Assembly (NCBI RefSeq): GCF_042453785.1
Contig: NC_091661.1
Location: forward strand, 28,635,501-28,699,500
Source of the DNA: Malus domestica
Lineage: Eukaryota > Streptophyta > Magnoliopsida > Rosales > Rosaceae
Direction of reading: 5' to 3'
DNA length: 64,000 nucleotides
Position numbers and translations under genes: made by a program. How positions within the stretch are numbered: position 1 is the first letter of the stretch; the number at the start of each line of letters is the position of its first letter. The notes under the pieces are model-generated. The model was given only the letters and a program-made list of their open reading frames with translations. It searched no databases and was not told where the DNA came from. Below, piece by piece: positions 30,274 through 64,000 of this stretch.

Positions 30274-30664
30274 TAAATTAATTGCATTTGTGCTTTCAGA
30301 TACTAAATCAAATCAACATATCCGGTACTTCGGAGTATTCAAAAAGTTTTGGTAATGGCCATTCTCTTACACAAAATCCTGCAATTTTCCTGACACATGG
30401 TAAAAGCGCAAATTTTGACTACAACACCACTATCATAAAGTGTGGCCATTGAAACTGTGCTTCTGGATTTTATTGCAATGCAATGAACCTCACCTGCCTC
30501 CTGCAACTCCATCTCACCATTCAAGAACCCTCATTTAGTTTTCTTGCACTCTCCATTAATATTTATACACTTCTGTGGCTAAAGACTTTATGTTCAAACC
30601 CTCAACCCCCCAACACCAACCAAATCGCTTCTGATTTTCTTCCTCTGTACTTTCTTCTTCTCCC

Positions 30665-33778: not shown

Positions 33779-33780
33779 AG

Positions 33781-33792
33781 TGGTATCAGAGC
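33781..33792 (+). promoter_or_regulatory. Primer-binding site (tRNA-iMet)
   Basis: TGGTATCAGAGC, the standard plant copia primer-binding site, two bases downstream of the 5' LTR. Confidence 0.92.
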
Positions 33793-33813
33793 CCGGTTGG
33801 CTCGTACTACGAG

Positions 33814-36800
33814 ATGGAAGGAAGTGGCACTATGATCAAACTCACCAACTCCAATTGGGTAACATGGAAGCCAAGGATGGAGGACATTCTCTATTGCAAG
33901 GATTTGCATGAGCCAATTGAAGGAGATGCCGCTAAGCCCGAGAGCATGTCCGATGCCGAGTGGAAGAAGATGAATCGCAAGGCTATTGGCACAATTAGAC
34001 AATGGGTGGATGATAGTGTTTTTCACCATGTGTCTAATGAAACCAATGCTCGCGAGTTTTGGACGAAGCTTGAGTCCTTGTTCGAGAAGAAGACCCCAGC
34101 CAAGAAAGCCTTCTTGATCAAAGAGCTCATCAATGTGAAGTACAAGGATGGTTTAAGTGTAGCAGAACACTTGAACAATTTCCAGAATATCATCAACCAG
34201 TTGGCTACTATGAAAATGACGATCGAGGACGAGCTACAAGCGCTCTTGTTACTTGGATCCTTGCCAGACAGTTGGGAGACCTTTGTGGTGAGTATAAGTA
34301 ACTCTGCTTCTAATGGTGTTCTTACTCTTGATAATGTTAAAAATAGCATGCTCAATGAAGAAACAAGGAGAAAGACTTCTGGCACAGATAGCAGCCAAGT
34401 ATTTGTCACAGAGAACCGCGGAAGAAGCAAGAGTAGAGGGCCTAGAGGTCATGGCAGGAGTCCTAGCCGATCCAAGTCAAGGTTCAGGGGTGCATGCCAC
34501 CATTGTGGCAAAGAAGGCCATATGAAGAAAAATTGTCGAGTTTGGAAGAGAGAGCAAAGGGAAGGAAACAATCAGAAGAAAGATGATACTGGCAATACCA
34601 CCGCTGTCATATGTGGTGATGTACCAGAAATATTGTCTGTTGGTGAATGTCTGCATATGGGCAACTCTGACAGAGACATTGAATGGATCTTTGATAATGG
34701 AGCTTCCTTCCATGCTACGTCCAAACGGGAGTTCTTCAGTACATACAAAGAAGGTGACTTTGGCATAGTGAAGATGGGGAATGAAAGCTATTCCAAAATT
34801 CTTGGAATTGGTGATATCTGCTTAAGAACTAATCTCGGCTGCCAATTGATGTTGAAAGATGTGAGACATATTCCTGATATACGTCTCAATCTGATATCCA
34901 TCGGTACCCTTGATCGACAAGGATATTATCACCATATTGGCGAAGGAAAATTGAAGCTTACTAAAGGCTTAATGGTGGTAGCAAGAGCACGACTTTGTTG
35001 TACGTTGTACCGGTCAAATGCCAAGGTTTTGAAAGGTGAGTTGAATGCTGTGGAAGACTCATCCCTAGACTTGTGGCATAAGAGGCTAGGCCACATGAGC
35101 GAGAAAGGCCTACAAGTTTTGGCAAAGAAGTCTCATATTCCCTTTGCCAAAGGTACGTCGTTAAACTCTTGTGAGCATTGTTTATTCGGAAAACAAAGAA
35201 GAGTTAGTTTTTCTGTTCCATCTACAAAGAAAGGAAACTTGTTAGATCTTGTTTATTCAGATGTGTGTGGTCCCATGGAAGTCGAGTCACTTGGAAGAAA
35301 TAAATATTTTGTTACTTATATTGATGATGCTTCACGAAGGGTGTGGGTGTATTTGTTGAAATCCAAAGACCAGGTGTTTCAGACATTCCAGGAGTTCCAT
35401 GCCATGGTGGAGAGGGAAACTGGGAAACCTCTCAAGTGCCTTCGTAGCGACAACGGCGGCGAGTACACATCTCACCAGTTTAGAGAGTATTGTGTAAAAC
35501 ATGGCATACGTCATGAGAAGACAGTTCCTGGAACTCCACAACATAACGGTGTTGCTGAAAGAATGAACCGAACCATCATGGAGAAAGTCAGGTGTATGTT
35601 GAGGACTGCAAAGTTATCTAAGCAGTTCTGGGGTGAAGCTGTAAGGACAGCCTGCTATTTGATCAACCGATCTCCATCAGTACCATTAGGTCTTGATGTT
35701 CCAGAGAGAGTATGGACTGGTAATGATGTGTCTTACTCTCATCTGAAGGTGTTTGGTTGCAAAGCTTTTGTGCATGTGCCCAAAGAGCAGAGATCGAAGT
35801 TAGACTACAAAGCTACACCGTGCATCTTTCTTGGTTATGGTGGTGAAGATTTTGGTTACAGATTATGGGACCCATACCAGAAGAAGTTTATCCGAAGTAG
35901 AGACGTGGTCTTTTATGAAGATCAAACAATTGGGGATTCGGATAAAGAGGCACAACCAGATGGCGCAGTCAGAGGAGTTGATCCATTAGCTTCAGATGAA
36001 GAAAGTCACGATGACATCCCTGAAGCAACTGCCAATGAAGTGCCTGCAGAATCAGATAATGCTGATCAAGAGGAGCCTGATCAAGATGTGCCAGACCATG
36101 AGATTGCTGATCAGGGGGAGCCTAGTCAAGAAGAGCAGATTCAAGGAGAATCCAATCAGGGGGAGCCTCTAGCCCCGCAAGAGAATGAAGATCAGGTCAG
36201 AAGATCCAGCAGAAGTCGAAGACCGTCTACCAAGTATTCTTCATCAGAGTATATCATGTTGACTAATTATGGAGAGCCCGAAACTTATGAGGAGGCCAGA
36301 GCTCATAACGACAGTGATAAATGGATGAAGGCAATGGAGTCAGAGATGGATTCCTTATTAAAGAATAATACCTATGAGCTGGTGGAGCTTCCAAAGGGCA
36401 GAAAAGCATTGAAAAACAAGTGGGTGTTCAAATTGAAAAATGACGACAACATGACAAGGTACAAGGCTCGTTTGGTTGTCAAAGGTTTTGGTCAAAAGAA
36501 AGGAGTTGACTTTGATGAGATTTTCTCACCGGTGGTGAAGATGACTTCCATTCGAGTTATCCTTGGTATGGCAGCAAGATCTTGAGCTCGAGCAGTTAGA
36601 CGTTAAAACTGCATTTCTCCACGGTAACTTAGAAGAGGAGATATATATGGAGCAACCCAAAGGCTTTGAAGTCAAGGGTAAAGAAACTTTGGTGTGCAAG
36701 CTCAAGAAAAGCTTATATGGTCTTAAGCAGGCTCCGAGACAGTGGAATAAGAAGTTCAACTCATTCATGGTGAGTAATGGGTACAAGAGAACTCATGCTG

Positions 36801-37822
36801 ACTCTTGTGTCTATATCAAACAATTTTCTGGAGGTAAATTTATCATTTTGTTGCTTTATGTTGATGACATGTTGATTGTCGGTCAAGATGCTTTTATGAT
36901 TAAAAAGCTCAAAGAAGAGTTATCTAAGTCCTTTGACATGAAGGACTTAGGGCCAGCCAAGCAGATTTTGGGCATGGAGATAATTCGTGACAGAAAATCC
37001 AAGAAGTTGTGGCTGTCACAAGAAAAGTATGTTGAACGGGTGCTTGAAAGGTTCAACATGAAAGCAGCCAAATCGGTAAGCTCACCTTTAGCCAATCATA
37101 TCAAGTTGAGCAAAGAGTCGTGTCCAAAAACATATGAAGAAAAGGAGAAAATGGCAGTTGTTCCCTACTCTTCAGCAGTAGGAAGTATCATGTATGCAAT
37201 GGTGTGCACACGGCCAGATATTGCTCATGCAGTAGGTGTGGTGAGCAGGTTTCTCTCTAATCCAGGGAAAGACCATTGGGAAGCTGTTAAGTGGATTCTC
37301 AGATATTTGAAGGGGACTTCTAAGATGTGCTTGTGCTTTGGCGGTTCCAAACCAATCTTGGAAGGATTTACAGATGCTGACATGGGAGGTGACCTGGATG
37401 GTAGAAAATCTACGTCTGGGTACTTGTTTACTTTTGCAGGGGGAGCCGTGTCTTGGCAATCCAAGTTGCAAAAGTGTGTTGCTTTGTCTACAACCGAGGC
37501 TGAATACATAGCCGCTACAGAAGCATGCAAGGAGTTGTTGTGGCTGAAGCGGTTTCTCCAAGAGTTGGGTTTGAAACAAAGTGATTATGGCGTTTATTGT
37601 GATAGTCAGAGTGCTCTGGATTTGAGCAAGAACACTGCATACCATTCACGCACCAAGCACATTGATATTCGTTATCACTGGATTAGAGATGCTATCGAGA
37701 ACAAGATGCTACAGCTGAAGAAGATTCATACCGATAATAATTCTTCAGACATGTTGACAAAGGTGGTCACAAAATCAAAGTTGGAATTCTGCATTAAGGC
37801 TGCTGGGATGGACTCCAGGTAA
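33814..37822 (+). pseudogene. Copia gag-pol polyprotein with frameshift in RT
   Basis: From the ATG at 33814 the frame runs to a stop at 36583-36585, then continues in another frame to 37822. Domain order: gag (UBN2-like), zinc knuckle CHHCGKEGHMKKNC (from residue 228), aspartic protease, integrase (HH-CC zinc domain in WHKRLGH and CEHCLFGK, DDE in SDVCGPM / SDNGGEY / GVAERMNR), reverse transcriptase (KNKWVFKLK; VDVKTAFLHG-type block as LDVKTAFLHG; LYVDDM) and RNase H (TDADMGGDLDGRKSTSGY; STTEAEYIA). This order marks Ty1-copia. Two lesions are visible: a small length change at about 36570-36585 shifts the frame inside RT, and the protease motif reads DNGAS at residues 294-298, where DSGAS or DTGAS is usual. 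I do not reconstruct the broken frame. Confidence 0.92.
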
Positions 37823-40928: not shown

Positions 40929-41748
40929 AATATTCTACTCCCAACTGCCCACCTTACTTACCACCAGTAATGCCAATGTGGCATTCAATACTCCAGACCA
41001 AATTATAATGTTTCTGTTTTACTTTATTCCGGAGGTGAATTTAACTCTAGTACTGTACAAGGCTACAAATGCAAACTTAATATTTATGATTTATGCATAC
41101 AAAACATATGGTTCAATCAAGCATACAAATTATACCATGCAAGAAAATTGAAACACATGACCGTGCATAATTGGAATGGAACACAGTGACATCTCAAGTA
41201 TAGGTAAGTTTATCTCTTGCTGAAGACTCGATTTCTTTTTTAACGAGGAAAATCATCAATCGAGAGATGATAAGAAGGAATTGGTATATTATCAAATTCA
41301 TTAACATAAGTAATCGATTGTGTATATTATCGTGGAATCCAAACTTTTTTTTTACTGCGTGTATTTCATGAAGGAAAATTGAGTTCAATAATTTTCAAAA
41401 TTCACATTATAGTAAACATGAGAAAGTAAAGAATCGAAATGGTTTCAATTCTCATTTACCGTACCGTAAGTAACGATATCACAACAATCAAAGGGAATTC
41501 AACTTGTTCCATGACAGCAGCTGGCCAACTCTGCAATATCTACTTAGCAATAGTGCATTCATGAAAAAACCAACCATCTTTAATACGTGCACATGTTGCC
41601 GCAGCAGATGTCCCTCTCCCTCCTTTCTCACTGATATTTCTACCCTCCAAAATACCATTTTCCATAAACCCTCACTCGCTCGCTCACTCCCCCACTTCAC
41701 TATCTCTTCCTCAACACTTCTCTTCTTCTTCTTCCTCCTCATTGCCTG

Positions 41749-44100
41749 ATGAAAATGGTGGAAAAACCAGAGAAATGGCAGGTTTTAACCCTAACAATCT
41801 TCATGTTCTTCAACATTGCCCTCTCTGCGAAAACCCCATTGACAAAAAAGACCTACATTGTCCAGATGGACAAGTCAGCCAAGCCAGAGTCTTTCTCCAA
41901 CCACATAGATTGGTACTCATCAAAAGTGCAATCCGTACTCATCAATCCAGAGAATCAAGAAGACGGAGGCGAAGATCAACAGAGGGTAATCTACACTTAC
42001 CAGAACGCCTTCCACGGCGTCGCTGCCCGGCTAAGCGAGCAAGAAGCCGAGCGGCTAGAGGAGCAAGACGGAGTCTTGGCGATTTTCCCAGAGACTAAGT
42101 ACGAGCTCCACACCACAAGGAGTCCCCTGTTTCTTGGGCTCGAACCGCATGTCAGAGCCAGCACCACCAATGTCTGGTCACAACGAGTCACCGACCACGA
42201 CGTCATTGTCGGGGTGCTGGACACGGGTGTCTGGCCGGAGAGCCAGAGCTTCAACGACACTGGCATGACCCCAGTGCCGGCCCACTGGAAGGGAGCGTGC
42301 GAAACCGGCCGTAGCTTCACCAAAAGCAACTGCAACAAAAAAATTGTTGGAGCGAGAATTTTTTATCACGGATATGAGGCAGCCACGGGGAAGATCAACG
42401 AGCAGACGGAGTTTAAGTCGCCGAGAGATCAGGACGGGCATGGGACCCACACTGCCGCCACAGTTGCCGGGTCTCCGGTGCGCGGTGCTAATCTTCTCGG
42501 GTATGCTCGTGGAACGGCCAGAGGAATGGCGCCGAGTGCGAGAATTGCGGCGTACAAGGTTTGCTGGGTCGGCGGCTGCTTCAGCTCAGATATTCTGTCG
42601 GCGGTGGACAGAGCGGTGGCCGATGGAGTCAATGTGTTGTCTATATCTTTAGGAGGAGGTGTGTCTTCTTATTACCGGGACAGTTTGTCCGTGGCGGCTT
42701 TTGGGGCTATGGAGATGGGAATTTTCGTGTCCTGCTCCGCCGGAAATGGAGGGCCGGATCCTGTTAGTCTGACCAATGTGTCCCCCTGGATAACCACGGT
42801 TGGAGCTAGCACCATGGATAGGGATTTTCCAGCTACTGTGAAGCTCGGAAATGGCAGGACTATTACCGGGGTTTCGCTCTACAGGGGAAGGATGAAGCTG
42901 TCAACAAACAAGCAATACCCTGTTGTGTATTTGGGAAGCAATTCAACTAGTCCTAATCCGAGCTCGCTGTGTTTGGAGGGGACGTTGGATCGCCGAGTTG
43001 TGGCCGGAAAGATTGTGATTTGCGACCGTGGGATTAGTCCTAGAGTGCAGAAGGGAGAAGTGGTGAAAGAAGCCGGAGGAGTTGGGATGATCTTGGCAAA
43101 CACAGCTGCAAACGGAGAGGAGCTTGTGGCGGATTGCCACCTTGTTCCGGCGGTTGCTGTGGGAGAGAACGAAGCAAAGGGAATCAAGCATTATGCTTCA
43201 ACAAGCCCGAGAGCCACCGCAACTCTAACATTTCTTGGAACTAGAGTTGGGGTTAGACCGTCGCCTGTGGTGGCAGCGTTTTCATCCAGAGGGCCTAATC
43301 TGGTAAGCCTTGAGATTCTCAAGCCGGATATGGTGGCACCAGGAGTTAACATCCTCGCCGCTTGGACAGGCGCATTAGGCCCGTCCAGCTTGCCAGCAGA
43401 TCGTAGAAACGTGAAGTTCAATATACTGTCCGGGACTTCAATGTCCTGCCCCCATGTGAGCGGCATTGCCGCTCTGCTCAAGGCAAGGCACCCGGATTGG
43501 AGTCCGGCTGCAATAAAGTCCGCCTTGATGACAACCGCGTATGTCCACGACAACACGCGAAAGCCTCTACAAGACTCCTCAGCAGCTTCAATTTCAACCC
43601 CGTATGATCACGGTGCAGGGCACATAAACCCGGTTAGGGCTCTTGACCCGGGATTGATTTACGACATTGAGGCGCAGGACTATCTTGAATTTCTCTGCAC
43701 ACAAAGGCTAACACCAACACAGCTCAAAGTTTTTACCAAGTACTCGAACAGAAGTTGCAAGAACAATCTAGCCAGTCCCGGGGACTTGAACTACCCGGCA
43801 CTTTCGGTTGTGTTCCCGGAGAGAACAAATGTTTCTGTTTTGACACTTCACAGAACTGTCACTAACGTTGGCCCTGCGGTTTCGAATTACCACGCCATTG
43901 TTTCACCGTTCAAAGGTGCTTATGTGAAAGTCGAGCCTCGGACGCTGAAATTCACCAAAGCCAATCAGAAGCTGTCATACAAAATCATCTTCACTACGAA
44001 ATCCCGGCAGGCAGTCCCGGAGTTCGGCGGGTTGGTGTGGAAGGATGGAGTGCACAGGGTGAGAAGCCCCATTGTTGTAGTGTGGCTGCCACCACTATAA
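41749..44100 (+). CDS. Subtilisin-like serine protease, SBT1 type (SBT1.3-like)
   Basis: A single exon of 783 residues, typical of plant subtilases. Signal peptide (about 1-27), I9 propeptide (about 35-125, TYIVQMDKS), then the S8 domain with catalytic Asp158 (VGVLDTG), His231 (DGHGTHTA), oxyanion Asn333 (SAGNGG) and nucleophile Ser564 (SGTSMSCPHVSG). A protease-associated domain is inserted between Asn and Ser (KIVICDRG ... GVGMILAN). A C-terminal fibronectin-III-like domain begins at LNYPALSVVF. The enzyme should be secreted, self-cleave its propeptide and act in the cell wall on proteins or peptide hormones. Assignment to SBT1.3 rests on overall resemblance. All catalytic residues are intact. 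Met3 is an alternative start. Confidence 0.95.
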   Translation: MKMVEKPEKWQVLTLTIFMFFNIALSAKTPLTKKTYIVQMDKSAKPESFSNHIDWYSSKVQSVLINPENQEDGGEDQQRVIYTYQNAFHGVAARLSEQEAERLEEQDGVLAIFPETKYELHTTRSPLFLGLEPHVRASTTNVWSQRVTDHDVIVGVLDTGVWPESQSFNDTGMTPVPAHWKGACETGRSFTKSNCNKKIVGARIFYHGYEAATGKINEQTEFKSPRDQDGHGTHTAATVAGSPVRGANLLGYARGTARGMAPSARIAAYKVCWVGGCFSSDILSAVDRAVADGVNVLSISLGGGVSSYYRDSLSVAAFGAMEMGIFVSCSAGNGGPDPVSLTNVSPWITTVGASTMDRDFPATVKLGNGRTITGVSLYRGRMKLSTNKQYPVVYLGSNSTSPNPSSLCLEGTLDRRVVAGKIVICDRGISPRVQKGEVVKEAGGVGMILANTAANGEELVADCHLVPAVAVGENEAKGIKHYASTSPRATATLTFLGTRVGVRPSPVVAAFSSRGPNLVSLEILKPDMVAPGVNILAAWTGALGPSSLPADRRNVKFNILSGTSMSCPHVSGIAALLKARHPDWSPAAIKSALMTTAYVHDNTRKPLQDSSAASISTPYDHGAGHINPVRALDPGLIYDIEAQDYLEFLCTQRLTPTQLKVFTKYSNRSCKNNLASPGDLNYPALSVVFPERTNVSVLTLHRTVTNVGPAVSNYHAIVSPFKGAYVKVEPRTLKFTKANQKLSYKIIFTTKSRQAVPEFGGLVWKDGVHRVRSPIVVVWLPPL

Positions 44101-45942: not shown

Positions 45943-47369
45943 TTACAACTCAGAAAGTTTATGCATACCAATTCCATGAGCAAGCTTCTGAAACGTCGCC
46001 TTCGGTAGTGATTTGGTGAAGAGGTCGGCCAGATTGTCTTGTGATCGGATTTGCATGACTTCAATCTTCTGATGTTCTTGTTGTTGATGTGTAAAGAAGA
46101 ACTTCGGCGCAATATGCTTGGTGTTGTCTCCTTTGATGTAACCCTTCTTGAGCTGTTCGATGCAAGCTGCGTTGTCTTCAAAAATCGTCATCGCGGCATT
46201 AACGGCATGATGAAGATCACAGGAGCTTCGAATATGACCCACTACTACTCTCAACCAAAAGCATTCCCGAGTTGCTTCATGTAAGGCGAGAATTTCAGCA
46301 TGGTTAGACGAAGTGGCAACTAAGGTCTGTTTAGTTGACCTCCAAGATATTGTGGTGCCTCCAACGGTAAAGACATAACCCGTTTGAGAACGCGTCTTGT
46401 GGATCAGATAAGTATCCAGCGTCGGCATAACCAACAAGGCGAGAATCAACCCGACGAGCATAGGGTGCGGCATCACTCGAGGATTCGTAGGGATAGAATA
46501 AGCCCAAATCCGTAGTACCCTTAAGGTAACGGAAGATGTCTTTCACGCCAGTCCAATGTCTGCGTGTTGGTGCATTAATGTATCTTGCCAAAAGATTAAC
46601 AGCGAAGGAGATGTCGGGTCTAGTGCATTGAGCTAAGTACAATAAAGCGCTTATCGCACTTAGATAAGGAACTTCAGGTTCTAGAATCTCTTCATCATCC
46701 TCCTTCGGACGGAAGGGATCTCGCTTTGCATCTAGCGTACGAACGACCATAGGAGTACTCGAAGACTTCGCTTTATCCTCATTAAAACGGCGCAACACCT
46801 TTTGGGTGTAGTTCGATTGATGTACTAAGATTTCATCCGAACAATGCTCTATCTCGAGACCGAGACAGTATCGAGTCTTACCTAGATCTTTCATCTCAAA
46901 TTCCGAGTTCAGGTGCGAAGCAGTTCTCGCTAGCTCTTCAGGAGTTCCGATGAGATTCATGTCATCGACATATACTGCAACAATCGCAAATCCGGAATGT
47001 GACTTCTTAATGAACACACAAGGGCATAGTTCGTTGTTCACATATCCCTGACTAGTCAAATACTCACTCAAACGGTTATACCACATTCTTCCGGATTGTT
47101 TCAAACCGTATAGTGAACGCCTCAGCCGAATTGAGAGCGTGTTCCGGGGTTTGGACATATTTGAACCAGTCAATGTAAGTCATTCGGGAACTTTCATATA
47201 AATTTCCGTATCAAGATCCCCATAGAGATACGCGGTTACTACGTCCATCAGCTGCATATCCAGTTTTTCGGAAACTACCAAACTGATAAGGTATCGAAAA
47301 GTAATCACATCCATAACGGGTGAGTAAGTTTCGTCATAGTCAATCCCGGGGCGTTGTGAGAAACCTTGT
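45943..47369 (-). pseudogene. Copia reverse transcriptase/RNase H remnant
   Basis: The minus strand reads RT from about 47369 (FSQRPGIDYDETYSPVMDVITFR, given here as separate blocks FSQRPGIDY, DETYSPVMD, VITFRYLISL), with a stop near 47180, then IRLRRSLYGLKQSGRMWYN, the catalytic AVYVDDMN, YLAQCTRPDIS, and RNase H GYADAGYLSDP. There the frame shifts and continues as KTRSQTGYVFTVGG, ATSSNHAEILAL and DNLADLFTKSLP. Broken by at least one stop and one frameshift. Confidence 0.88.
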
Positions 47370-47374
47370 GCTAC

Positions 47375-49109
47375 TAATAAGTCTCATTTTGCATGCATTT
47401 ATATCTACCTTATTGGGCGTCTTTGTGATGTTTTTTTTATTAAGCTAGTTGCATTTTACATTATTTGGTGTTAGTGTGCAGCCAAGTGTGTATTTGGATC
47501 AATGGGAAGGCAAATGAAGTAAAAACATTCCTTTTGGTAGCTGAGCATTATTCCAAATGTGGAGAGGATTCTAGGGAGTTAATTTGAAGTCCAAATGAAG
47601 AATCTAGGAAACATTTGGCTGCTGGAATTTCAGGAAAGGATGTGGAAGTGTTAAGTGGTGAAATTCGGCCATATTGGGTGATTCTAAACAAGGCAAAAAC
47701 ATTGAAGTCAGATTATGTGGTTCTAACACCAAAACATGCATTCACATGCATGTTCACAACCTGGCCGTGCATTCCATTACCTTTCCAGCTCCCTTTTGCA
47801 CCAAGAACATGCACTTCCATTACTTAATTCACATTATGCCATCCCAGCTCCCTCATGCCCATGCCGTGCACTGTCATACCTTTTCCAGATTTGTACAACC
47901 AATTCCAGGTTGTCCATTTCAGCTTTGCAGCCAATACACATGCATGTTCAATTAAAATAGCTATATGCATGCATATACACCTTGTGCCGTGCATCCACCA
48001 CCTCAGAAACTCACTCATTCCAGCTCATTTATGCACTTCCATCTCACATGTGCAATTCCAGCTCCATTCTTAATGATGGCAGTGACATTTCCCTTCTATA
48101 AAAACCGTGCAAACTCACTTCTTTTGGGGGTTCTTCCATTATTTTGGGGGATGATTCACACATTCTAAGCCGCTCCATCTCTGTCCATTTACTCTCCCAT
48201 TTGCAGAGAACATCCAACCTTAAGCCGATCCATTTCCGTTTCATCACACTTGGAGAATCAACACCGAAGGCCACTCTTAAAGGATTTCAGCATCAGTTTT
48301 GCTTCAAGGGTTTCTTTTTATTAATTCTATGTTCACTCATGTTATTTATTATTATGTCCAACCTTTTGTAAACATGAAGTGTAACTAATCTCTCTCTAGG
48401 GATTCGATGTAGCCTTGCAAGATTGCTATGTAGTTAATTCAGAATTCTCAGTTAGTCTATCTATTTCTTGTTTCATTCTCTGGTTTAATTGTGACTTAGT
48501 GAGTTGATTTTAATGCTTGATCATCATTTGAGTTAACCATAGGTTGTTTAGCCAAGATTAAAGCACACATCATGCATAATCTTGGTGGATATGTGAATGA
48601 ATGAAGGGAATGTTTTGCAAACATCCTGCCGAGTGCTCCCTTGGGTTTTATGAAAGTTTCTTGTGCATTACATGTTCTTGATTAGGAACCAAAGTTGCAC
48701 ATCACAATTAGGTTCATGATTAGAGACATTTGATCAAATCCACACATCATATGGTTGATCATATCCATGTGAAACAAACTCAAGAAATAGGTAGATGACT
48801 GAGTATAAACTGATTTAACAAACATGGCCTTAGGTTAGCAATGGTAAAATCGAATCCCTAGCTTCATTTCCATTGGTACTATTCCATTCTATTAGTTGTT
48901 GATTCATTTATTTGTGTTCACTTCATTTTCTTATGTTTTTAAGTTACAACTACAAAATCTGCCTACATTGATTAGTTTTATTTCTCTAATAGGAGCTTTT
49001 GCAAAACAAGTGGTTATATAAGATCAATTAGTCTCTGTGGATTCGACACCCTTACTTGTGCCATTATACTAAACATATTCTAGCCCTAGCAAGGAATAAA
49101 ACATCAACA
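47375..49109 (+). mobile_element. Solo LTR, 1735 bp, nested in the copia RT
   Basis: Perfect 5-bp duplication GCTAC at 47370-47374 and 49110-49114. Removing it rejoins the copia RT frame (KAHLVA, then QGFSQ-type sequence). Ends are TAATAAG and ATCAACA: a TG...CA pair with one TG-to-TA change. A promoter-like CTATAAAAA box lies at 48096-48104. The 3' part has GTGGATTCGACACCC, a word I associate with plant Ty3-gypsy LTRs. No coding sequence inside. Confidence 0.85.
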
Positions 49110-49114
49110 GCTAC

Positions 49115-50176
49115 AAGATGAGCTTTGTAACGCACAATTTCATTCTTCTCATTACGCTTCCGAACGAAAACCCACTTGGTACGTATGACCAACGATCGAG
49201 CAATCATTTGTAAACGCTTAATGAAAGCCTCTGCCAGGCCGTTCTGGGTGTGAACATGGGGTACATGATGTTCAACTTCAACCCCAACCGACATGCAATA
49301 GTCATCAAAAGTTTTAGATGTGAATTCTCCAGCATTATCTAATCGAATAGATTTGATCGGATAATCAGGGTGGTGAGCCTTGAGCTTGATAACCTGAGCC
49401 AACAGTTTAGAGAATGCAGCGTTCATTGTGGACAATAAGCACACGTGTGACCAACGTGTAGAAGCGTCAACCAAAACCATAAAATATCTAAATGGTCCGC
49501 AGGGAGGTTGAATCGGTCCACAAATGTCCTCCTGAATCCGTTGTAGAAAAATGGAAGGATTCGAACAAATCTTGTCATAAGAAGGCTTAGTAATAAGCTT
49601 TCCCATAGAACATGTTTGACATGCAATTTCATGGATCGAACCTAAGCTTCGGGTTAGTGGATGCCCGTGTGAAGTTTTGAGGATACGGCGCATCACTATT
49701 CGTCCAGGATGTCCCAAACGATCATGCCAAAGTGTAATTTCGTGCGCGGTCCCTGTGGTAGGGCCGGCCACATAATGGCATTCTATGGGGCATATGGTCG
49801 TAGTATACAGACCACTCGGGTTACGCTCCATCTTCTCTAGAATACGCTTCTGGCCATATTCGTAGGAAGTTACGCACAGAAATTCAACTCCGTTTTCTAC
49901 GTGGGTTTCAGCGTGGTAATGGTTATCTCTAATGTCCTTGAAACTTAGTAACGTTCTTCCGGAACGTGGAGAATAGAGTGCCTCAGCAATGGTCAAGATT
50001 GTACCATTGGACAACATTATACGTGCCTTACCGTATCCTTCAATCAGGTTGGATGGGCCTGAGAGGGTTGTCAGAGGTGCATTCTTAGGTACGAAGTTAG
50101 TGAAATAGATGCGTTCACGCAAAACAGTATGTGTGGTTGCACTATCTGCCAGACAACTAACTTTCCCACTAGTCAT
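49115..50176 (-). pseudogene. Copia protease-integrase remnant fused to RT by deletion
   Basis: From the Met at 50176 the minus strand reads protease (CLADSATTHTV), then integrase with WHDRLGHPG and CQTCSMGK (zinc domain), DICGPIQPP, IRLDNAGEF and NGLAEAFIKRLQ. It then jumps directly to RTKWVFVRKRNEKNE of RT. The integrase C-terminus and the start of RT are missing, in frame, so an internal deletion fused the two. Confidence 0.87.
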
Positions 50177-50423
50177 ACCTAGAATGAAAAATTAATTTGA
50201 ATCGGTCACATGCATAAAAGTTTATAAAAACAAGTATCAATTCAAAATAATTTCATTTATTAAAAAAAAACTTAATATCCAAAATAAACCGCCAACTAAT
50301 AATCCAAAACATAAAGGAAAATTGTTCAAAATCAACCAAAAAACAAGTTGGGGTTCGGCCACTAGGTGGAATTCGGCCCCAATTGTCTTATTTTAACTGA
50401 AAAATAAGTCTATGTCTAAGATT

Positions 50424-53602: not shown

Positions 53603-53607
53603 AAATT

Positions 53608-54242
53608 TGTCACATCCTGGCCCGGGTCCACCACTTTCCGGGCCCGTTCCACCATCGTAGTACGATATTGTCTGCTCTGGGCTTACCATTCCCTCACGGT
53701 TTTGTTTTTGGGAACTCACGAGCAACTTTCTAGTGGGTCATCCATCCTGAGAGTGCTCTGACCTCCTTCTCGCTTAACTTCAGAGTTCCTATGGAAACCG
53801 AAGCTAGTGAGCTCCCAAAAAGCCTCGTGCTAGGTAGAGATGAGAATATACATTTAAAGATCACTCCCCTGGGCGATGTGGGATGTTACAATCGACCCCC
53901 TTAGGGGCCTGACGTCCTCGTTGACACACTTCCGGCCAGAGATTGGCTCTGAAACCATTTGTCACATCCCGGCCCGGGTCCACCACTTCACGGACCCGTT
54001 CCACCACCGTAGCATGATATTGTCCGCTTTGGGCTTACCATTCCCTCACGATTTTGTTTTTGGAAACTCACGAGCAACTTCCCAGTGGGTCACCCATCCT
54101 GGGAGTGCTCTAGCCTCCTTCTCGCTTAATTTCAGAGTTCATACGGAACTCGAAGCCAGTGAGCTCCCAAAAGGTCTCATGCTAGGTAGGGATGAGAATA
54201 TACATTTAAGGATCACTCTCCTGGGCGAAGTGGGATATTACA
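53608..54242 (-). mobile_element. Cassandra-type TRIM retrotransposon with 5S rRNA-like LTRs
   Basis: Two 283-bp LTRs (53608-53890 and 53960-54242), TGTCACATC...TTACA, flank a 69-bp interior. On the minus strand the interior begins with TGGTTTCAGAGCCA, a near-perfect tRNA-iMet primer-binding site, and ends with a purine run, AAGGGGGTCGA. The interior encodes no protein. The LTRs contain a 5S rRNA-like block on the minus strand: AACTCTGAAATTAAGCG, then CCCAGGATGGGTGACC and CTGGGAAGTTGCTCGTG, matching 5S positions that hold the internal promoter. This is diagnostic of Cassandra TRIMs. A target duplication of 4-5 bp (AATT/AAATT) is compatible. Confidence 0.92.
54060..54190 (-). repeat. 5S rRNA-like segment in the Cassandra 5' LTR
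   Basis: The TTAAGCG, GGATGGGTGACC and TGGGAAGT words lie in 5S order on the minus strand; the partner LTR has them at about 53708-53840. This is part of a retroelement, not a 5S gene. Confidence 0.8.
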
Positions 54243-55049
54243 AATTAGTCTTCTATCACAAAAAAAAAATGATGGTCAATAATGTAATTTCACAAGTCCA
54301 AATTTTACTTTTTTTTATTGAAGTTTCACCTACGAGTGATGTTAAAATACCTCTAATATTTATATAAAAAAAACCAAAAAAAAAAAAACCTCCCACTCCT
54401 CCACGTTCTCTCTCTCTCTTCCTCTTTCTCCTTCTCATTTTCTAAAAAAAAATGTGTTCAAATACACAAAATGTGTAGGCAAATACTAGCCATCTATAAC
54501 TACAACTTAATTTATAAATTTAACTTAAAAAATTTAGTTTTCTTAAAATTACATTTTTTTTTTGTTGTTTTAATATTTCATTAAAACAAACAAAAAAATC
54601 ACAACGGAAACGAAACAAGCCCCCAAAAACAGAGATTAGGCCCAAACAGAAACAAAGCTCAAAGAAGAAGAAAACCCTAGCAGCAGAGAAACTGTTGAAG
54701 TCGTCGTCCCCATCGCCGCACTGCTGAGCCAAACGGATGAACGGCCGCAGGGATCCAGAAGAAGATAAGGTCAAGCAAAAAACCTCCCAACACAGAACCT
54801 CCAACAGATGCACGAGATAAACCAAAAGACAGCCCAAAAAGTGCAGGACACGAATGCTCCATCATCCTCCACGAACCCAACATCGCCGCACCGGTGAGCC
54901 AAACAGAATCATATCTTTGGGTACAATTTTTCCAGCCAATCGTTTAACTCCCAACTCCAAAAGCTGACGCTCAATCGGCCATTTCAGCTTTTACGTTGCA
55001 TTAGGCGAGTCGGTAGCTGACCATCTGCTGTGGATATTGTCCCTGTCAG
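54243..55049. other. 5' flank of the TNL gene
   Basis: No separate gene. AG-rich leader-like sequence lies at 54590-54700. Open frames on the minus strand here show no family resemblance. Confidence 0.4.
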
Positions 55050-58000
55050 ATGTCAATGGCTGCTCCTTCCTCTTCCTCATTGAAATACAACGTCTTCCTG
55101 AATTTCAGAGGCGTAGACACTCGCAAGATCTTCGTCGGCCATCTCTACAGAGCTCTGGATCAGAAATTAATCACCTTCATCGACGCCGAAGAGATCAGAA
55201 AAGGCGACGATCTTTTGCAGCTCCTCTCAGCTATCGAAGAGTCGAGGATTTCGATCGTGGTTTTCTCCCAGAACTACGCTTCTTCGACGTGGTGCTTGAA
55301 AGAACTGGTCAAAATCCTGGCGTGCATGGACGCAAAGAAGCAGATAGTGGTGCCGATTTTCTACGAAGTTGATCCATCTGAAGTTCGTAAGCAAAAGAAA
55401 ATTTTTGCAGAAGCTTTTGCTCAACACGAACGCGAATCGAACGCCGACATGGAAGAGGTGGAGAGCTGGAGGTCCGCGGTAACCAGAGCTGCCAATTTAT
55501 CCGGCTGGGATTCGCGAAAATACGAGTAATTACTGTTCGATTATATTCTTAATTACTTATGAATTGAGATTTTTATAGCATTTAGTTTAATTCGGTGCTG
55601 TTTTTCGTATTACACAGGGATGATGCCAAGCTTATTGAGGAAATTGTGGATGACATATATAAGAGATATATCCAAGTCTCGCCAAGCAAAGATAATGGCT
55701 TGGTTGGAATGGATTACCACATAGATGCAGTGAATTCACTATTACGTCCTGGGGTGGATGATGTTTTCACTGTTGGAATATGGGGTATGGGAGGTATAGG
55801 CAAAACCACCATCGCTCGCGCTGTTTATGATGGAATCGCATGTCAATTTGAAGCTTGCTGCTTTCTCGAAAATGTCAAGGAAGGCTTCTCGAAGAATGGT
55901 GCAGTACATATGCAAGAAATGCTTCTTTCTAGAATCTTGAAGCAGGAAAAGGTGCAGAGTTTAGGCACGTTGGAAAGGCTACAAAGGCTACAAAGGAAAA
56001 AAGTTTTCATTGTTCTTGATGACGTTGATGAATTATCCCAAATCGAAGCCTTACTTGGAAAGCAGCATTCATTTGGTGGTGGAAGTCGGGTCATTATAAC
56101 AACTAGAGATAAACAATTATTAAGTGGAGCTGGTGCTGTATATAAGCCCGAGAACTTAAGTGAGCCAGAAGCTCTTAAACTCTTCTACCAGTATGCCTTC
56201 AGAACAATCCAACCCACCCGAAATTATGGTCAGCTCTCAAGGCGTGCCATACAATATGCCCAAGGTCTGCCTTTAGCACTCAAAGTGTTGGGAGCTTTTC
56301 TTGATAACAAAACTGTGCCCGAGTGGGAAGATGAGTTGGAAAAAATAAGGAAAATCCCGCAAAAGGGAATTCATAATGTGCTTAAAACGAGCTTTGATGG
56401 ACTAGATGAGTCAGACAAGGACATCTTTCTAGATATTGCATGTTTCTTGAAAGGAATGGATATAGACAGTGCAAAAAAAAGTCTGGACAGTTGTGGCTTA
56501 TATCCCCATCGTGGAATAAGAGTTCTAATCGACCGAGCTCTCATATCTGTGTCAAAGTGGGGGGAACTGGTGATGCATGATTTACTAGAGGAAATGGGTC
56601 GGGAAATCGTTCGCCAAGAATGTATCAAAGAGCCTGGGAGAAGAAGTAGGTTGTGGAGTTATGAAGATGTTCGTCATGTGCTGACTCAAAAAACAGTGAG
56701 ATATCTTTCTCTTATGCAATGTTTCGTAGAAAGCTTCAGCTTTCGACGAAAATCTATTTTATAGCAAACATGCATTGTTTATAATATTCAATAAGGTTCT
56801 TTGTGTTTTCCTTCACTTTAATTTACATTGTTGGTTTATCCAGGCTACAGAAGCAATTGAAGGCATAATCCTGGATTCAGCAATCTTTAAAGAGAGATGC
56901 TCAAATACTGAAGCATTTGTTAGTATGACAAAACTAAGACTGCTCATGATACGTGATGGTTACTTTGACGAATATGGGTTTGTATCCGAGGATTCATTTG
57001 ACAGTCAAACTTCAACTGAAGCAGAAGATGAGCTTGCATTCGGGGATTCATTTGACAATCGAGCTCCACATGATTGCTTCATAAAACACTGGATTGCGGA
57101 CTTAAAGTTCCAAAGTTCTCAGTTGAGGTGTCTCATCTGGCGTGGTTGCCCCCTCAAGTCTTGGCCATCCAACTTCCAGTTCAAGAATCTTGTAAACCTT
57201 GACATGAGCAATAGTCGCATCGAACAACTTTGGACAGGAGCTGAGGTACGATTTTTCATTTACGTAAATATATTTATTTTCAATGTTTAGGTTCTGAGAT
57301 GTGTTGTGCATGTTTTCCTGTACTTTTTAACAGCCTCTGGAAAAGTTGAAATTCATCAATTTAAGTTATTGTGAAAGCCTTAAGAAAACCCCCGACTTCA
57401 CAAAGGCTACAAGTCTTAAGGAACTAAATCTCAAAGGTTGTACAGAGTTATATGAGGTTGACCCATCCATTTCAGCTCTGAAAAACCTTGCTATATTGAA
57501 TCTAGGAGACTGTGAAAATCTTAAGAGCCTTCCGGGCATCATTCGTATGGGATCTCTTCAAACCCTTGATCTTTCTGGTTGCTCAAACCTTGAGAAGTTT
57601 CCTGAGATTTCGGAAGTTATGGAGGAGCTGTCAGAGCTTTATTTAGTTGGGACTGCAATTAAAGAACTGCCTTCTTCAATTAATAAACTCACAGGCCTCA
57701 CTGTTTTGGACCTATCTCAGTGTCGAGAACTCAAGAGCCTGCCGAGCAGCATTCATATGGGATCTCTTCAAACCCTTAAACTTTCTGGTTGCTCAAACAT
57801 TGAGAAGTTTCCAGATATTTCAGATGTTATGGGGAATCTATCAAAGTTATATTTAGATAGCACTGCCATTAAAGAACTGCCTTCGTCAATTAATAAACTC
57901 ACGGGCCTTACTTTTTTGGACCTAAGAGGCTGTGAAAATCTTAAGAGCCTTCCGGGCATCAATCATATGGGATCTCTTCAAACCCTTAATCTTTCTGGTT

Positions 58001-61000
58001 GCTCAAACCTTGAGAAGTTTCCTGAGATTTCGGAAGTTATGGAGGAGCTGTCAGAGCTTTATTTAGTTGGGACTGCAATTGAAGAACTGCCTTCTTCAAT
58101 TAATAAACTCACGGGCCTTACTCTCTTGGACCTAAGACGCTGTGAAGAACTGAAGAGCCTGCCGAGCAGCATTCATATGGGATCTCTTCAAACTCTTAAT
58201 CTTTCAGGTTGCTCAATGCTTGAGAAGTTTCCAGATATTTCAGATGTTATGAAGAAACTATCAAGGTTATATTTAGACAAGACTGCAATTAAAGAACTGC
58301 CTTCGTCAATTAATAAACTCACAGGCCTCACTGTTTTGGACCTATCTCGGTGTCGAGAACTCAAGAGCCTGCCGAGCAGCATTCATATGGGATCTCTTCA
58401 AACCCTTAATCTTTCTGGTTGCTCAAACCTGGAGCAGTTTCCAGATATTTCAGGTGTTATGGAGAAGCTATCAGAGCTTTATTTAAACGAGACTGCAATT
58501 AAAGAACTGCCTTCGTCAATTAATAAACTCACAGGCCTCACTGTTTTGGACCTATCTCGGTGTCGAGAACTCAAGAGCCTGCCGAGCAGCATTCATATGG
58601 GATCTCTTCAAACCCTTAATCTTTCTGGTTGCTCAAACCTGGAGCAGTTTCCAGATATTTCGGGTGTTATGGAGAAGCTATCAGAGCTTTATTTAGACGA
58701 GACTGCAATTAAAGAACTGCCTTCGTCAATTAATAAACTCACGAGCCTTACTATTTTGGTCCTAAGAGGCTGTCGAGAACTCAAGAGCATGCCAAGCAGC
58801 ATTCATATGGGATCTCTTCAAACCCTTAAACTTTCTGGTTGCTCAAACATTGAGAAGTTTCCAGATATTTCAGATGTTATGGGGAATCTATCAAAGTTAT
58901 ATTTAGATAGCACTGCCATTAAAGAACTGCCTTCGTCAATTAATAAACTCACGGGCCTTACTTTTTTGGACCTAAGAGGCTGTGAAAATCTTAAGAGCCT
59001 TCCGGGCATCAATCATATGGGATCTCTTCAAACCCTTAATCTTTCTGGTTGCTCAAACCTTGAGAAGTTTCCTGAGATTTCGGAAGTTATGGAGGAGCTG
59101 TCAGAGCTTTATTTAGTTGGGACTGCAATTGAAGAACTGCCTTCTTCAATTAATAAACTCACGGGCCTTACTCTCTTGGACCTAAGACGCTGTGAAGAAC
59201 TGAAGAGCCTGCCGAGCAGCATTCATATGGGATCTCTTCAAACTCTTAATCTTTCAGGTTGCTCAATGCTTGAGAAGTTTCCAGATATTTCAGATGTTAT
59301 GAAGAAACTATCAAGGTTATATTTAGACAAGACTGCAATTAAAGAACTGCCTTCGTCAATTAATAAACTCACAGGCCTCACTGTTTTGGACCTATCTCGG
59401 TGTCGAGAACTCAAGAGCCTGCCGAGCAGCATTCATATGGGATCTCTTCAAACCCTTAATCTTTCTGGTTGCTCAAACCTGGAGCAGTTTCCAGATATTT
59501 CAGGTGTTATGGAGAAGCTATCAGAGCTTTATTTAAACGAGACTGCAATTAAAGAACTGCCTTCGTCAATTAATAAACTCACAGGCCTCACTGTTTTGGA
59601 CCTATCTCGGTGTCGAGAACTCAAGAGCCTGCCGAGCAGCATTCATATGGGATCTCTTCAAACCCTTAATCTTTCTGGTTGCTCAAACCTGGAGCAGTTT
59701 CCAGATATTTCGGGTGTTATGGAGAAGCTATCAGAGCTTTATTTAGACGAGACTGCAATTAAAGAACTGCCTTCGTCAATTAATAAACTCACGAGCCTTA
59801 CTATTTTGGTCCTAAGAGGCTGTCGAGAACTCAAGAGCATGCCAAGCAGCATTCATATGGGATCTCTTCAAACCCTTAATCTTTCTGGTTGCTCAAACCT
59901 GGAGCAGTTTCCAGATATTTCAGGTGTTATGGAGAAGCTATCAGAGCTTTATTTAGACGAGACTGCAATTAAAGAACTGCCTTCGTCAATTAATAAACTC
60001 ACAGGCCTCACTGTTTTGGACCTATCTCGGTGTCGAGAACTCAAGAGCCTGCCGAGCAGCATTCATATGGGATCTCTTCAAACCCTTAAACTTTTTGGTT
60101 GCTCAAACTTTGAGAAGTTTCCAGATATTTCAGATGTTATGGGGAAGCTATCAAAGCTTTATTTAGGTGGGACTGCCATTAAAGAACTGCATTCGTCAAT
60201 TAATAAACTCACGGGCCTTACTGTTTTGAACCTAAGAGGCTGTCGAGAACTCAAGAGCCTGCCGAGCAGCATTCATGTAGGATCTCTTCAAACCATTATT
60301 CTTTCGGGCTGCTCAATGCTTGAGAAGTTTCCAGATATTTCAGATGTTATGGAGAAGCTATCAGAGCTTCATTTAGATGGGACTGCTATTAAAGAACTGC
60401 ATTCATCAATTAATAAACTCACGGGCCTTACTATTTTGAACCTAAGAGGCTGTCAAGAACTCAAGAGCCTGCAGAGCAGTATTCATATCGGATCTCTTCA
60501 AACCCTTAATCTTTCTGGTTGCTCAAACCTTGAGAAGTTTCCAGAGATTTCAGATGCTATGGAGAATCTATCAGAGTTATATTTAGATGGGACTGCCATT
60601 AAAGAACTGCCTTCATCAATTAATAAACTCACGGGCCTTACTGATTTGAACCTATCTTGGTGTCAAGAACTCAAAGAGCCTGCCGAGCAGCATTCATATG
60701 GGATCTCTTCAAACCCTTATTCTTTCGGGTTGCTCAATGCTTGAGAAGTTTCCAGATATTTCAGATGTTATGGAGAATCTATCAGAGTTATATTTAGATG
60801 GGACTGCCATTAAAGAACTGCCTTCGTCAATTACTAAACTCACGGGCCTTACTGTTTTGAACCTATCTGGGTGTCAAGAACTCAAGAGCCTGCCGAGTAG
60901 CATTCATATGGGATCTCTTCGAACCCTTATTCTTTCGGGTTGCTCAATGCTTGAGAAGTTTCCAGATATTTCAGATGTTGTGGAGAAGCTATCAAGGTTA

Positions 61001-62023
61001 TATTTAGATGGGACTGCCATTCAAGAACTGCCTTCGTCAATTAATAAACTCACGGGCCTTACTGTTTTGGACCTATCTGGGTGTCAAGAACTCAAGAGCC
61101 TGCCGAGCAGCATTCATATGGGATCTCTTCAAACCCTTAATCTTTCTGGTTGCTCAAAACTTTGAGAAGTTTCCAGACATTTCAGATGTTATGGAGAAGC
61201 TATCAAAGTTATATTTAGATGGGACTGCAATTAAAGAACTGCCTTCTTCAATTAGAAATCTTCCAGGTCTTGTTACGTTGAACGTAAGAGATTTTAGAAA
61301 ACTCAAGTCTCCCAAGCAGCATTTGTGATCTCAAGGCCCTTCACTATCTTAGTCTTTCTGGTTGCCCAAAGTTTGAGGTGTTGGAATTATTGGGTATTGC
61401 TCATTTATCATTATTGAGTACATTAGAACTCTGCAGAAACAATTTTGAGAGCTTGCCTGCGGAAATGAATTGGCTTCATTGGTTAACAAGTCTCAAATTG
61501 GAAGGTTGCAAGGGACTGAAATCAATACCAGAGATTTCATCAACTATAAGGTTCATAGATGCCCATGATTGCACGGCTTTGGTATCTGTTTCAAGACCAA
61601 GCAAGTTTTTTCCGAAGAATCTTTACTTGACATTTTCAAACTGCTTCCAGCTGGTGCAAAATCTATTTGAAGATGTTGTGGAAGCTCATCAGGTCTCTCT
61701 CTCTCTCTCTCTACGTGCAAAAGTATGAAACATATCTAATGCAAGTCCAGTTTACCTTTGTTTTCATTCTGCAGGGTAATCCGCAACCTCTTTCCTTGTT
61801 TATGTATCTTCCTGGAAGTAAACTTTCAGATTGGTTCAGCCATCAGTGTAGCAGATCTTCCGTAACTGTGCATCTACCACCAGTCTTGGATCATAAGATT
61901 TTAGGATTCGCTGTGTGCGGTGTTACTAAGTTCAAGTATGCACATTATGCATCTGATCTATCTGCTCTGTGTTTTTGTACCTTCAAAGGAGAGCATGCAT
62001 GGCGAGCGCGGTTTCTGCTTTGA
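55050..62023 (+). CDS. TIR-NB-LRR resistance-type gene with giant LRR, frameshifted near 3' end
   Basis: Predicted exons: 55050-55525 (TIR), 55618-56695 (NB-ARC), 56844-57245 (linker and first LRRs), 57334-61692 (LRR array) and 61775-62023 (C-JID-like). TIR: NFRGVDTRKIFVGHLYRAL, with the NADase-type Glu85 in SSTWCLKEL. NB-ARC: P-loop GMGGIGKTT (Lys221), VFIVLDDVD, GSRVIITTRD, GLPLALKVLG, FLDIACFLKG, MHD. All are intact. Intracellular immune receptors of this class sense pathogen effectors and signal through TIR NADase products. The LRR exon is an 18-unit array of 70-residue modules. Extra A bases at about 60673-60675 and 61156-61159 and a 2-bp loss at about 61305-61312 shift the frame three times and restore the original frame. 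As read, the protein stops after 1788 residues. A further shift lies at about 62000. These may be true decay or assembly errors in homopolymers. The C-terminal LPGSKLSDWFSHQ block is conserved. Confidence 0.88.
57550..61330 (+). repeat. 18 tandem copies of a 210-bp LRR module
   Basis: Units begin at GSLQTL every 210 bp (57550, 57760, ... 60490, then 60701, 60911 and 61122 after the single-base insertions). Each encodes 70 residues, roughly three LRRs: GSLQTLNLSGCSNLEKFP, LSELYLDGTAIKELPSSIN, KLTGLTVLDLSRCRELKSLP. A five-unit block (57745-58829) recurs 1050 bp later (58795-59879) with no mismatch I can find. Confidence 0.95.
61693..61715. repeat. CT microsatellite at TNL intron 4 donor
   Basis: (TC)n immediately after the GT of the intron following the LRR exon. 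Length variation here could affect donor use. Confidence 0.6.
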
Positions 62024-64000
62024 TTTGCTTGATTTGAGCATCACAAGAGGCAGGTTACTTGAGTCAGATTATGTGATTCTGGGGCACCAGTTCAGCAGCA
62101 TCGCGTCAGAAGGAGTGGAGTTCGTCTCTTTTATGCCAACTGTGAGGAGGTGCATAATCTCTTTTATGCCAATTGTGAGAGGAAGCTAATTGTAAGCCCG
62201 TGTGGTCCCTTTTATCCCAAATTTGAGGTGGTGCGTTATTGAAGCATGATACAGCCGGATCAATTCCACTTTCAAGAACAACACTATCATCATGAGAATT
62301 CTGAAGCCGAACTTCGTGCTTTTGGCAAATCAATGGTAAGAGTTGCACATTCTGAGAGGAACCGTGAAGGGTGTTGCTATAACGAGGGTGAACAAAATGG
62401 AAGTGATACCTCTGACGCAGAGGATTTGTATTCTAAAAGATTGGTACTTCCTGATGGGGCAAAGGAAAACTGAAGAGAACAATCCCTCTGTGTTGGATTT
62501 GATGGCTCAGTCCTGTTGGGTCTCAACACTTTCTACGCGGACCTAAAACCAAACTGTTGTGGCTCTTTAGTTGGCATATGCGGATCCCATGCTAGGTCTC
62601 TTTAGTGCTCGTATTTAAAGCCTCGCATTGTGTCGAATTTGGATGAGACGGTGGGAAATGTGAATACAAGCAGCTGCACTAGTGTAAAGGAAAGAGAAGA
62701 GCCGACACCCAATGGAAGAGAGAAGTAAAATGGGGAGCTGCTGCGTTTAAGGTTCTGTAAGAGTGAAACCAATTAGCGATTGTTGTAGTTGTAGAGAAAC
62801 AAATATTTTGTTTGTAATTCGTTTTTTCCCTCTTCTATTTGTGAGTGTATCTGGGTGTATTTTGGGTTTGAGTTTGAGAGTACTCTTTGTAATCTCCTTT
62901 TCCTTTTGTTTATTAGTGAAACTTCCTTGCTGTCCCCGAACTGGATGTAGGTTTACGCCGAACCAGTATAAATCTTTGTGTCATTTTAATTGTTTGTTTT
63001 GTCATATTTTTCCGTATTAGTTTATTGGTTTCAAGTTAGTGTTTCCCGCACAACACATTGAACCCCGAGCTTGTTGTATTTGGAAGTGCCAATTCAGATA
63101 ATGTGAGTCGTCCAATTTGACATTGACAGAGGTTGAGATGAGCTTGTTGTAATGTTAATTCAAAATTAGAACAAGAGAAATGGCTCGATGTGCTGAAATT
63201 GAAAAATTCAAGGGGTGTGATATCCACACATCCTATTTTACTTCTCACACATTCTTTTAATTTTCGACTGTCGGATCGGATGAATTGAAGAAGATCAACG
63301 GACAGAAATTATCAAGGGGTGTGCGAGAAGTAAAATGAAGTGTGCTATCATGAAAACAAGATTAATTAGAATAATTAAGTTTTTAATTGCTCAATTCTGT
63401 TCCATACGAACTTAGAATATCACTTTGTAGAGCTGTAATAACTTTGCAGCCACAAGACATAAATACCAAGTACCCTTAATTGCTCTTCCGGACGTTTCTG
63501 GTTCGTGTTGACATAAACAATAGATTTTTTAGTGTGCTTGACATACGGCTCAGTACACCAAATTTAATAATAATTGGTTGGAAACTTAAAAAAAAAAATT
63601 ATAATGAATTGTATCATTAATTCTTGGTGTACCAAATAATTTGCCGGCCGCACGAAAAAACTTCTCGACATGAATACAACCCAAAGGCGTCACTATTAGC
63701 TACTACTAAGAATACAAAGTTTACATGAAAGAAAAAGGTTAAACTATCATTTCACGTTCAACTTAAATAATTACACACGAGTTATCTAGTTACACAATTG
63801 TGTAAGCGTGCTAAAATGTACGTCACTTTCAAATTAGGTGGGTTGGATGGGAACACAAACTCTTATTAACCACGATAAATGGGTCAGCACGATTATGCCC
63901 AACCCAAACAAACTTATTTTTTGTCCTTTTCAAGTCGGATTATCGAATCTGTCTAAAATTGTTACCTCTACTCTTTCTTGGCACACCCAAATTCAAACAA
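62024..64000. other. TNL 3' region and spacer
   Basis: 62024-62470 still shows TNL tail-like blocks in several frames (GERGFCFDLLDLS, RRSGVRLFYANCEE, MIQPDQFHFQEQ), so the C-terminal coding end is frameshifted here or has unrecognised introns. Beyond about 62550 I see no gene, only a family B MITE remnant at 63212. Confidence 0.5.
63212..63345. mobile_element. hAT-type MITE, family B, truncated copy
   Basis: GGGGTGTGATATCCACACATCC and the internal CGGATCGGATGAATTGAAG block match the 40780 copy. The right inverted end is cut off at about GTGTGCTATC. Confidence 0.78.

Follow-up and report, generated by a model that had tools for sequence, protein, structure and literature searches.

The window analysed here, a 64-kb stretch of apple (Malus domestica) DNA, corresponds to C1:28635501-28699500, where C1 denotes contig NC_091661.1; coordinates given without a prefix are positions within the window, and the genome searched comprised 651 Mb in 19 contigs. 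It contains a gene which, by its domain content (TIR, NB-ARC with a winged helix, and leucine-rich repeats, LRRs), is assigned to the TIR-NB-LRR (TNL) class of immune receptor genes. Its five exons, listed in Table 1, have borders predicted from conserved splice-junction motifs; exon 2 measures 1078 bases as compared to 1090 in four of the five other C1 copies described below, an in-frame difference of 12 bases, and the C-JID (post-LRR) region matches positions 1-45 only of the 98 in the Pfam profile. The fourth exon holds an array of 18 repeat units, five of which appear to have been gained very recently, and on the whole we judge it probable that this array has lengthened by drift in a receptor gene that no longer works.

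Tandem Repeats Finder reported a repeat of period 210 at 57523-61254 (17.8 copies, 89% matches), and a unit profile resolved 18 full units, the first beginning at 57544, in agreement with the roughly 18 units of 210 bp counted in a preliminary description of this DNA. The perfect five-unit repeat which that description had placed at a 1050-bp offset over 1085 bp was likewise recovered, as the longest exact self-match (57745-58829 with 58795-59879); it is made up of two 1050-bp blocks together with the 35-bp start that they share, and these same 35 bases are found nine times within 57301-61700. Units 2-6 are each 100% identical to their counterparts among units 7-11, while the remaining unit pairs are 79.6-95.7% identical, with the exception of units 5 and 10 against unit 12 (99.5%). 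A chance origin of the five-unit repeat is ruled out by 1085 identical bases.

Three LRRs per unit had also been proposed, and a model of units 1-6 agrees, with three predicted strands in every 70 residues, at about positions 7-9, 31-33 and 54-56 of the unit; this 420-aa model, whose input was nine staggered pieces of the array itself (the best of five scoring 82.4 and the others 58.0-41.2), was used for strand spacing only. A single-sequence prediction of the 1111-aa array was unusable (mean predicted local distance difference test score 46.8), and a fold search did not discriminate, RPP1 coming at rank 28, behind generic LRR proteins of which SHOC2 is one. The proposed total of about 54 LRRs holds for what is encoded; units 16-18 do not share the frame of the first 15, which leaves no more than about 45 of these 54 array LRRs in frame. 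In line with the statement that the number exceeds the usual TNL count, the 54 encoded LRRs lie far above the 21 of RPP1 and the 24 of ROQ1.

Table 1. Features of the TNL gene and its repeat array (window positions)
Feature	Position	Strand	Basis or remark
Exon 1, TIR domain	55050..55525	+	Pfam TIR PF01582, E=3e-45, on open reading frame 55017-55529; borders from conserved junction motifs
Exon 2, NB-ARC and ROQ1-type winged helix	55618..56695	+	Pfam PF00931, E=9e-28; PF23282 WHD_ROQ1, E=5.1e-24
Exon 3, NB-LRR linker and first LRR	56844..57245	+	Pfam LRR_3; predicted borders
Exon 4, LRR exon containing the array	57334..61692	+	Predicted borders; Pfam LRR_13, E=1.3e-190, on 57331-60741
18-unit array; unit of 210 bp = 70 codons = three LRRs	57544..61322	+	Tandem Repeats Finder and unit profile
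Five-unit block, copy 1 (1050 bp)	57745..58794	+	Exact 1085-bp self-match, offset 1050
Five-unit block, copy 2	58795..59844	+	Without counterpart in the near-identical gene C1:28773133
35-bp identity common to both block starts	59845..59879	+	Interval holding the proposed exchange
Extra A, frameshift in unit 15 (211 bp)	60673	+	Missing from C1:28773133
First in-frame stop, TGA	60742..60744	+	948 bases before the exon-4 donor
Unit 18 with +1 shift near 61156 and -2 shift near 61305	61150..61310	+	Shifts inferred from frame changes
Exon 5, C-JID (post-LRR) coding region, 82 codons then stop	61775..62021	+	Pfam C-JID, E=1.8e-9, open reading frame 61631-62020

With exons 2-3 as the query, five close relatives of 90-98% identity were found on C1, which we name by coordinate. 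As compared to the 18 units of the window gene, C1:28773133 holds 13, C1:28844996 holds 11, C1:28752707 and C1:28833055 hold 12 each (the last one partial in both) and C1:28875296 holds 6. The first of these, which sits 82 kb downstream of the window gene, is near-identical to it: 12 of its 13 units match window units at 100%, and the remaining one differs by 1 bp, the extra A. Its units run 1, 2-6, 7-13 and those of the window gene run 1, 2-6, 2-6, 7-13, and the two genes thus differ by exactly one five-unit block. Their flanks are 100% identical for 2401 bp upstream, at an offset of 82,013, and for 1501 bp downstream, at an offset of 80,939; the 1,074 bases between the two offsets are accounted for exactly by the 1050 bp of the block, a 23-bp deletion in C1:28773133 and the 1 bp of the extra A. 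Outside the array the genes differ by 14 substitutions in about 8.3 kb, 12 of them at 56186-56260, and a fifteenth substitution and a compensating pair of 210-bp gaps within the array were found on unit-by-unit comparison to be alignment artefacts.

With no difference at all between the two blocks and very few between the two genes, the simplest history would be a single gain of five units in the window copy; the alternative, a loss in C1:28773133 after an earlier gain, is less simple in that it needs two events. The very recent amplification of whole modules put forward in the preliminary description is thus strengthened by a second gene that has this unit order with exactly five units fewer. 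In the patch at 56186-56260, which lies in the NB-ARC exon and was compared among several copies over 55863-56260, the window gene agrees with C1:28844996 at 11 of the 12 differences, and at those 11 positions C1:28773133 agrees with C1:28752707 in 10; this patch is likely to be an ectopic gene-conversion tract.

The same description had placed all units in exact register within one exon, and this does not hold throughout: unit 15 is 211 bp long, unit 18 is shifted and the open frame (57331-60744, 1137 aa) closes at 60742. The predicted coding sequence is therefore interrupted, the stop falling about 26 codons past the unit-15 frameshift, and the joined predicted exons give 1788 aa, of which the frameshifted tail ends before units 16-18 and the C-JID. 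The DNA for the C-JID is present but lies beyond this stop and in another reading frame; in TNL genes an in-frame C-JID is usual, though not universal. The shift in unit 18, yielding a stop after ...LNLSGCSKL, is common to the window gene, C1:28773133 and C1:28844996 (three of the six C1 copies), and since it is shared both with the near-identical gene and with a more diverged one, the C-terminus would already have lost its frame by the time of the five-unit gain. The shift at 60673 is missing from C1:28773133 and so would have arisen after the two genes split, unless it is an error in a short A-run. That all of the frameshifts are sequencing errors is ruled out for unit 18, whose shift recurs in a clearly diverged paralogue. 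The transcript of the window gene would be expected to undergo nonsense-mediated decay, and the receptor is probably not working.

Among the other C1 copies, C1:28773133 stops after 255 aa as a result of its 23-bp deletion, which lies in NB-ARC, and C1:28844996, whose frame breaks in unit 6, stops after 1124 aa, while C1:28752707 and C1:28833055 are open to 1583 and 1585 aa, respectively, with exon 4 read to its first stop. Pfam finds TIR and NB-ARC in C1:28752707; in both of these 12-unit copies it detects LRRs, and no C-JID, in the 3' portion of the LRR exon, and the window C-JID as a query had no match in the DNA fetched for them. The 6-unit copy C1:28875296 (1558 aa) has a full-length C-JID match (profile positions 1-97 of 98) and is the one copy of six in which TIR, NB-ARC, LRR and C-JID fall in one predicted open frame. 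We also note that between 28.69 and 28.88 Mb of C1 a gene set seemingly recurs as a module of about 80 kb, with exon 2-3 matches at 28691, 28737 and 28753 kb, at 28773, 28817 and 28833 kb, and at 28845, 28869 and 28875 kb; the first two of these sets are nearly identical in the parts compared.

The three-LRR module is present in TNL genes on several chromosomes. One 210-bp unit has at least 203 matches in the genome, those listed being on C1, C2, C4, C7, C8, C9 and C17, and 29 of the 30 loci retrieved with exons 2-3 show at least part of the unit in the stretch fetched (L036 shows none); eight best NB-ARC loci chosen regardless of this family lack it within a 1.5-kb flank. At the 18 of these 30 loci where the array was read through to its ends the genes hold 27, 18, 18, 13, 11, 11, 11, 11, 11, 10, 8, 7, 7, 6, 6, 5, 3 and 1 full units, the two 12-unit genes being entered as 11 on account of their partial last unit. 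The longest array belongs to a related TNL on the minus strand at C4:2487634 (L031, L048 and L050), with 27 units of 213 bp and one frame change, which rules out the window array as a unique record. A stop interrupts the array in eight of the ten genes with at least nine units as compared to one of the eight with fewer (Fisher p=0.015), or in seven of eight against one of eight (p=0.010) when the two near-identical copies are omitted, in a comparison of related genes whose nine-unit cut was set after the data were seen and in which one of the eight interrupted long arrays, that of C1:28773133, is stopped only in its last unit. An honest reading is that long arrays give no sign of special protection.

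With moderate confidence, we favour the interpretation that the window gene is a TNL with an unstable array of modules, that an exchange added five units to a 13-unit ancestor, that the receptor is probably not working, and that array length here reflects neutral drift in copy number, the gene being a decaying member of its TNL cluster, as opposed to a larger recognition surface grown under selection. The starting point would be an old module of three LRRs, 70 codons long, repeated head to tail in the LRR exon; with a DNA identity of about 80-100% among them, modules can pair out of register when the array recombines or is repaired, and whole modules are thereby gained or lost. One event that brought together the start of unit 2 and that of unit 7 in the 13-unit ancestor, inside the 35-bp identity, may then have duplicated units 2-6 and added 1050 bp, and we infer from the arrangement of the units both that the gain took place in the window copy and that unequal exchange was its cause. 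The lineage would already have had its C-JID out of frame before this expansion, and the window copy would have acquired a second frameshift, in unit 15; its function has probably been lost. The grown recognition surface suggested in the preliminary description is not supported for this gene, with its frame broken in units 15 and 18, a C-JID past the stop and a unit-18 break older than the five-unit duplication.

Several observations weigh against this interpretation. The extra A at 60673 lengthens an A-run by one base (AA becoming AAA) and might reflect an error in the sequence, although the frame would still close in unit 18 without it. The two near-identical 12-unit copies keep about 36 array LRRs in frame in the absence of a C-JID, and sensor TNLs of paired systems with degenerate C-JIDs are described in one review (PMC8813719). 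The first breaks, 8 in 108 units of the long arrays and 1 in 42 of the short ones, are perhaps merely proportional to length. Finally, nonsynonymous change is enriched at exposed LRR positions among the six C1 genes (permutation p=0.0004): omega, the ratio of nonsynonymous to synonymous rates, reached 1.03 at the 15 positions of the LxxLxLxx motif taken as exposed, against 0.49 at all others, pooled over 37 of 72 units (of the 35 dropped, 30 are in two genes with near-identical partners and 5 are frame-broken, partial or divergent last units). The earlier assertion that variation lies mainly at exposed positions is upheld in that amino-acid change concentrates there, and the pooled dN/dS sets these positions above the rest; they were assigned from the motif, the strands of the model fall at them, and several of the most variable unit positions (15, 61 and 21) lie outside the exposed set. 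The modules look as if they were once under receptor-like selection, which fits a past recognition domain and stops short of proving positive selection.

One alternative concerns only the mechanism and overlaps with the interpretation above: if the five-unit step is real, it might tentatively be ascribed to replication slippage or single-strand annealing in place of unequal crossing-over. The junction identity spans only 35 bp, and window units 2 and 12 (2 and 7 in the numbering of the 13-unit copy) are otherwise 84.8% identical, as would suit such a process; however, the whole number of units and the conversion-like patches among the paralogues fit homologous exchange equally well, and sequence alone cannot separate the two.

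Alternatively, the segment of about 81 kb that carries the window gene and its near-identical copy might be a single locus assembled twice, either as uncollapsed haplotypes or as a false tandem duplication, with the five-unit difference being allelic or a mis-resolved repeat. The perfect flanks and the few, mostly clustered substitutions outside the array speak for such an artefact, as do the 99.85% identity of C1:28752707 and C1:28833055 over 7.5 kb at an 80-kb offset and the position of the extra A in a short A-run, and an exact repeat of 1085 bp is a hard case for assemblers. Against this, the 12 clustered differences show the pattern of genuine variants between paralogues, as in gene conversion (a chimeric assembly could mimic this), the length arithmetic is exact, and the unit-18 frameshift, being common to a clearly diverged paralogue, is no random error. 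A segmental duplication of about 81 kb and two haplotypes assembled in tandem have the same appearance in this assembly, and were the copies indeed two haplotypes the five-unit change would be real but allelic. On balance we regard an artefact as unlikely.

The last alternative is that the amplification was selected for a larger effector-binding surface and that a protein without the C-JID, of about 1788 aa and with about 45 array LRRs, still works, or serves as a sensor or decoy, as the excess of change at exposed positions, the open 12-unit paralogues and the degenerate C-JIDs of sensor TNLs might suggest; but given two frameshifts in the window gene, a C-terminal frame lost before the expansion, frame breaks that are common among the long arrays examined, and five added units that, being exact copies, bring no new residues, we consider it very unlikely.

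The closest solved relative by sequence is the TNL ROQ1 (PDB 7jlu/7jlv), which matches at NB-ARC with E=1.9e-71 and at the LRRs with E=3.3e-57; part of its LRR region aligns in register with the array and has the same TxIxxLPxSI and CxxLxxLPSSI pattern. The order of its domains (TIR, NB-ARC, winged helix, LRR, C-JID) is that of the window gene, but its 24 LRRs are followed by a C-JID in frame, whereas the window gene is truncated and its 54 encoded array LRRs come in near-identical modules.

Changes in LRR number are familiar from other resistance genes. For instance, inactivation of the flax rust-resistance gene M, also a TNL, is reportedly associated with the loss of a repeat unit from its LRR-coding sequence; M is said to carry few long repeated units, as compared to the 1-27 units of about 210 or 213 bp across the present gene family. 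In tomato Cf-2/Cf-5 (Hcr2), the number of LRRs ranges from 25 to 38 and varies via recombination (PMC10515242); these are cell-surface receptor-like proteins and not TNLs, and the likeness lies in the change of LRR copy number. As in variation of the flax M/Cf-5 type, the near-identical copies described here differ, in this assembly, by whole units, 18 against 13. Within the Rosaceae, unequal crossing-over is reported for the Rdr1 TNL cluster (PMC3503547) and, in Ma-type TNLs of Prunus and Malus, internal duplication of post-LRR exons together with one chimeric copy that a frameshift close to its point of recombination cuts short (PMC6141779); the Ma-type genes duplicate C-JID (PL) exons, whereas the window gene duplicates LRR modules. 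Since LRR copy-number change by recombination is already known from these systems, we file the window array as a known kind of process, probably one at work in a pseudogene. Judging by titles and abstract openings, we found no description of this array among the papers listed. The review cited above calls the C-JID indispensable for TNL-mediated immunity (PMC8813719).

The significance of the locus lies in two copies or alleles that stand exactly five modules apart and are identical in nearly all else, within a family of 1-27 modules in one genome. Such a pair makes the rate and fate of module gain testable, and to our knowledge, short of a systematic search, pairs one resolvable module step apart are uncommon. 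It also advises caution, as long LRR arrays in annotations need not mean bigger sensors when eight of ten long arrays here are interrupted. We further speculate, as a rather doubtful extension, that one TNL clade of this genome may rest on a three-LRR module prone to recombination, with a copy number that is actively mutating, a whole-module step separating near-identical copies, and arrays of 1-27 units, the long ones mostly frame-broken; changes in array length would then generate receptor variants in a contingency-like manner, and now and then an intact long form, of which the open 12-unit copies are examples, would be retained.

Upstream of the TNL gene, an element of about 640 bp at 53607-54243 has matches of about 90% on many chromosomes and is satellite-like or mobile; on C11:20451759-20454886 it stands in tandem at a spacing of about 354 bp. 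Downstream, at 63210-63344, lies an element of about 135 bp resembling a miniature inverted-repeat transposable element, with matches on both strands at many genome sites. A tandem pair of 489 bp with 96% matches occupies 17291-18276, and Copia-type retrotransposon coding regions are found at 33712-37819 (two overlapping frames) and, on the minus strand, at 46331-47179 and 49064-50191. Further genes in the window include those for a pentatricopeptide repeat protein (10363-12015), a FAE1/type III polyketide synthase-like protein (30635-31639) and a subtilase (41668-44097).

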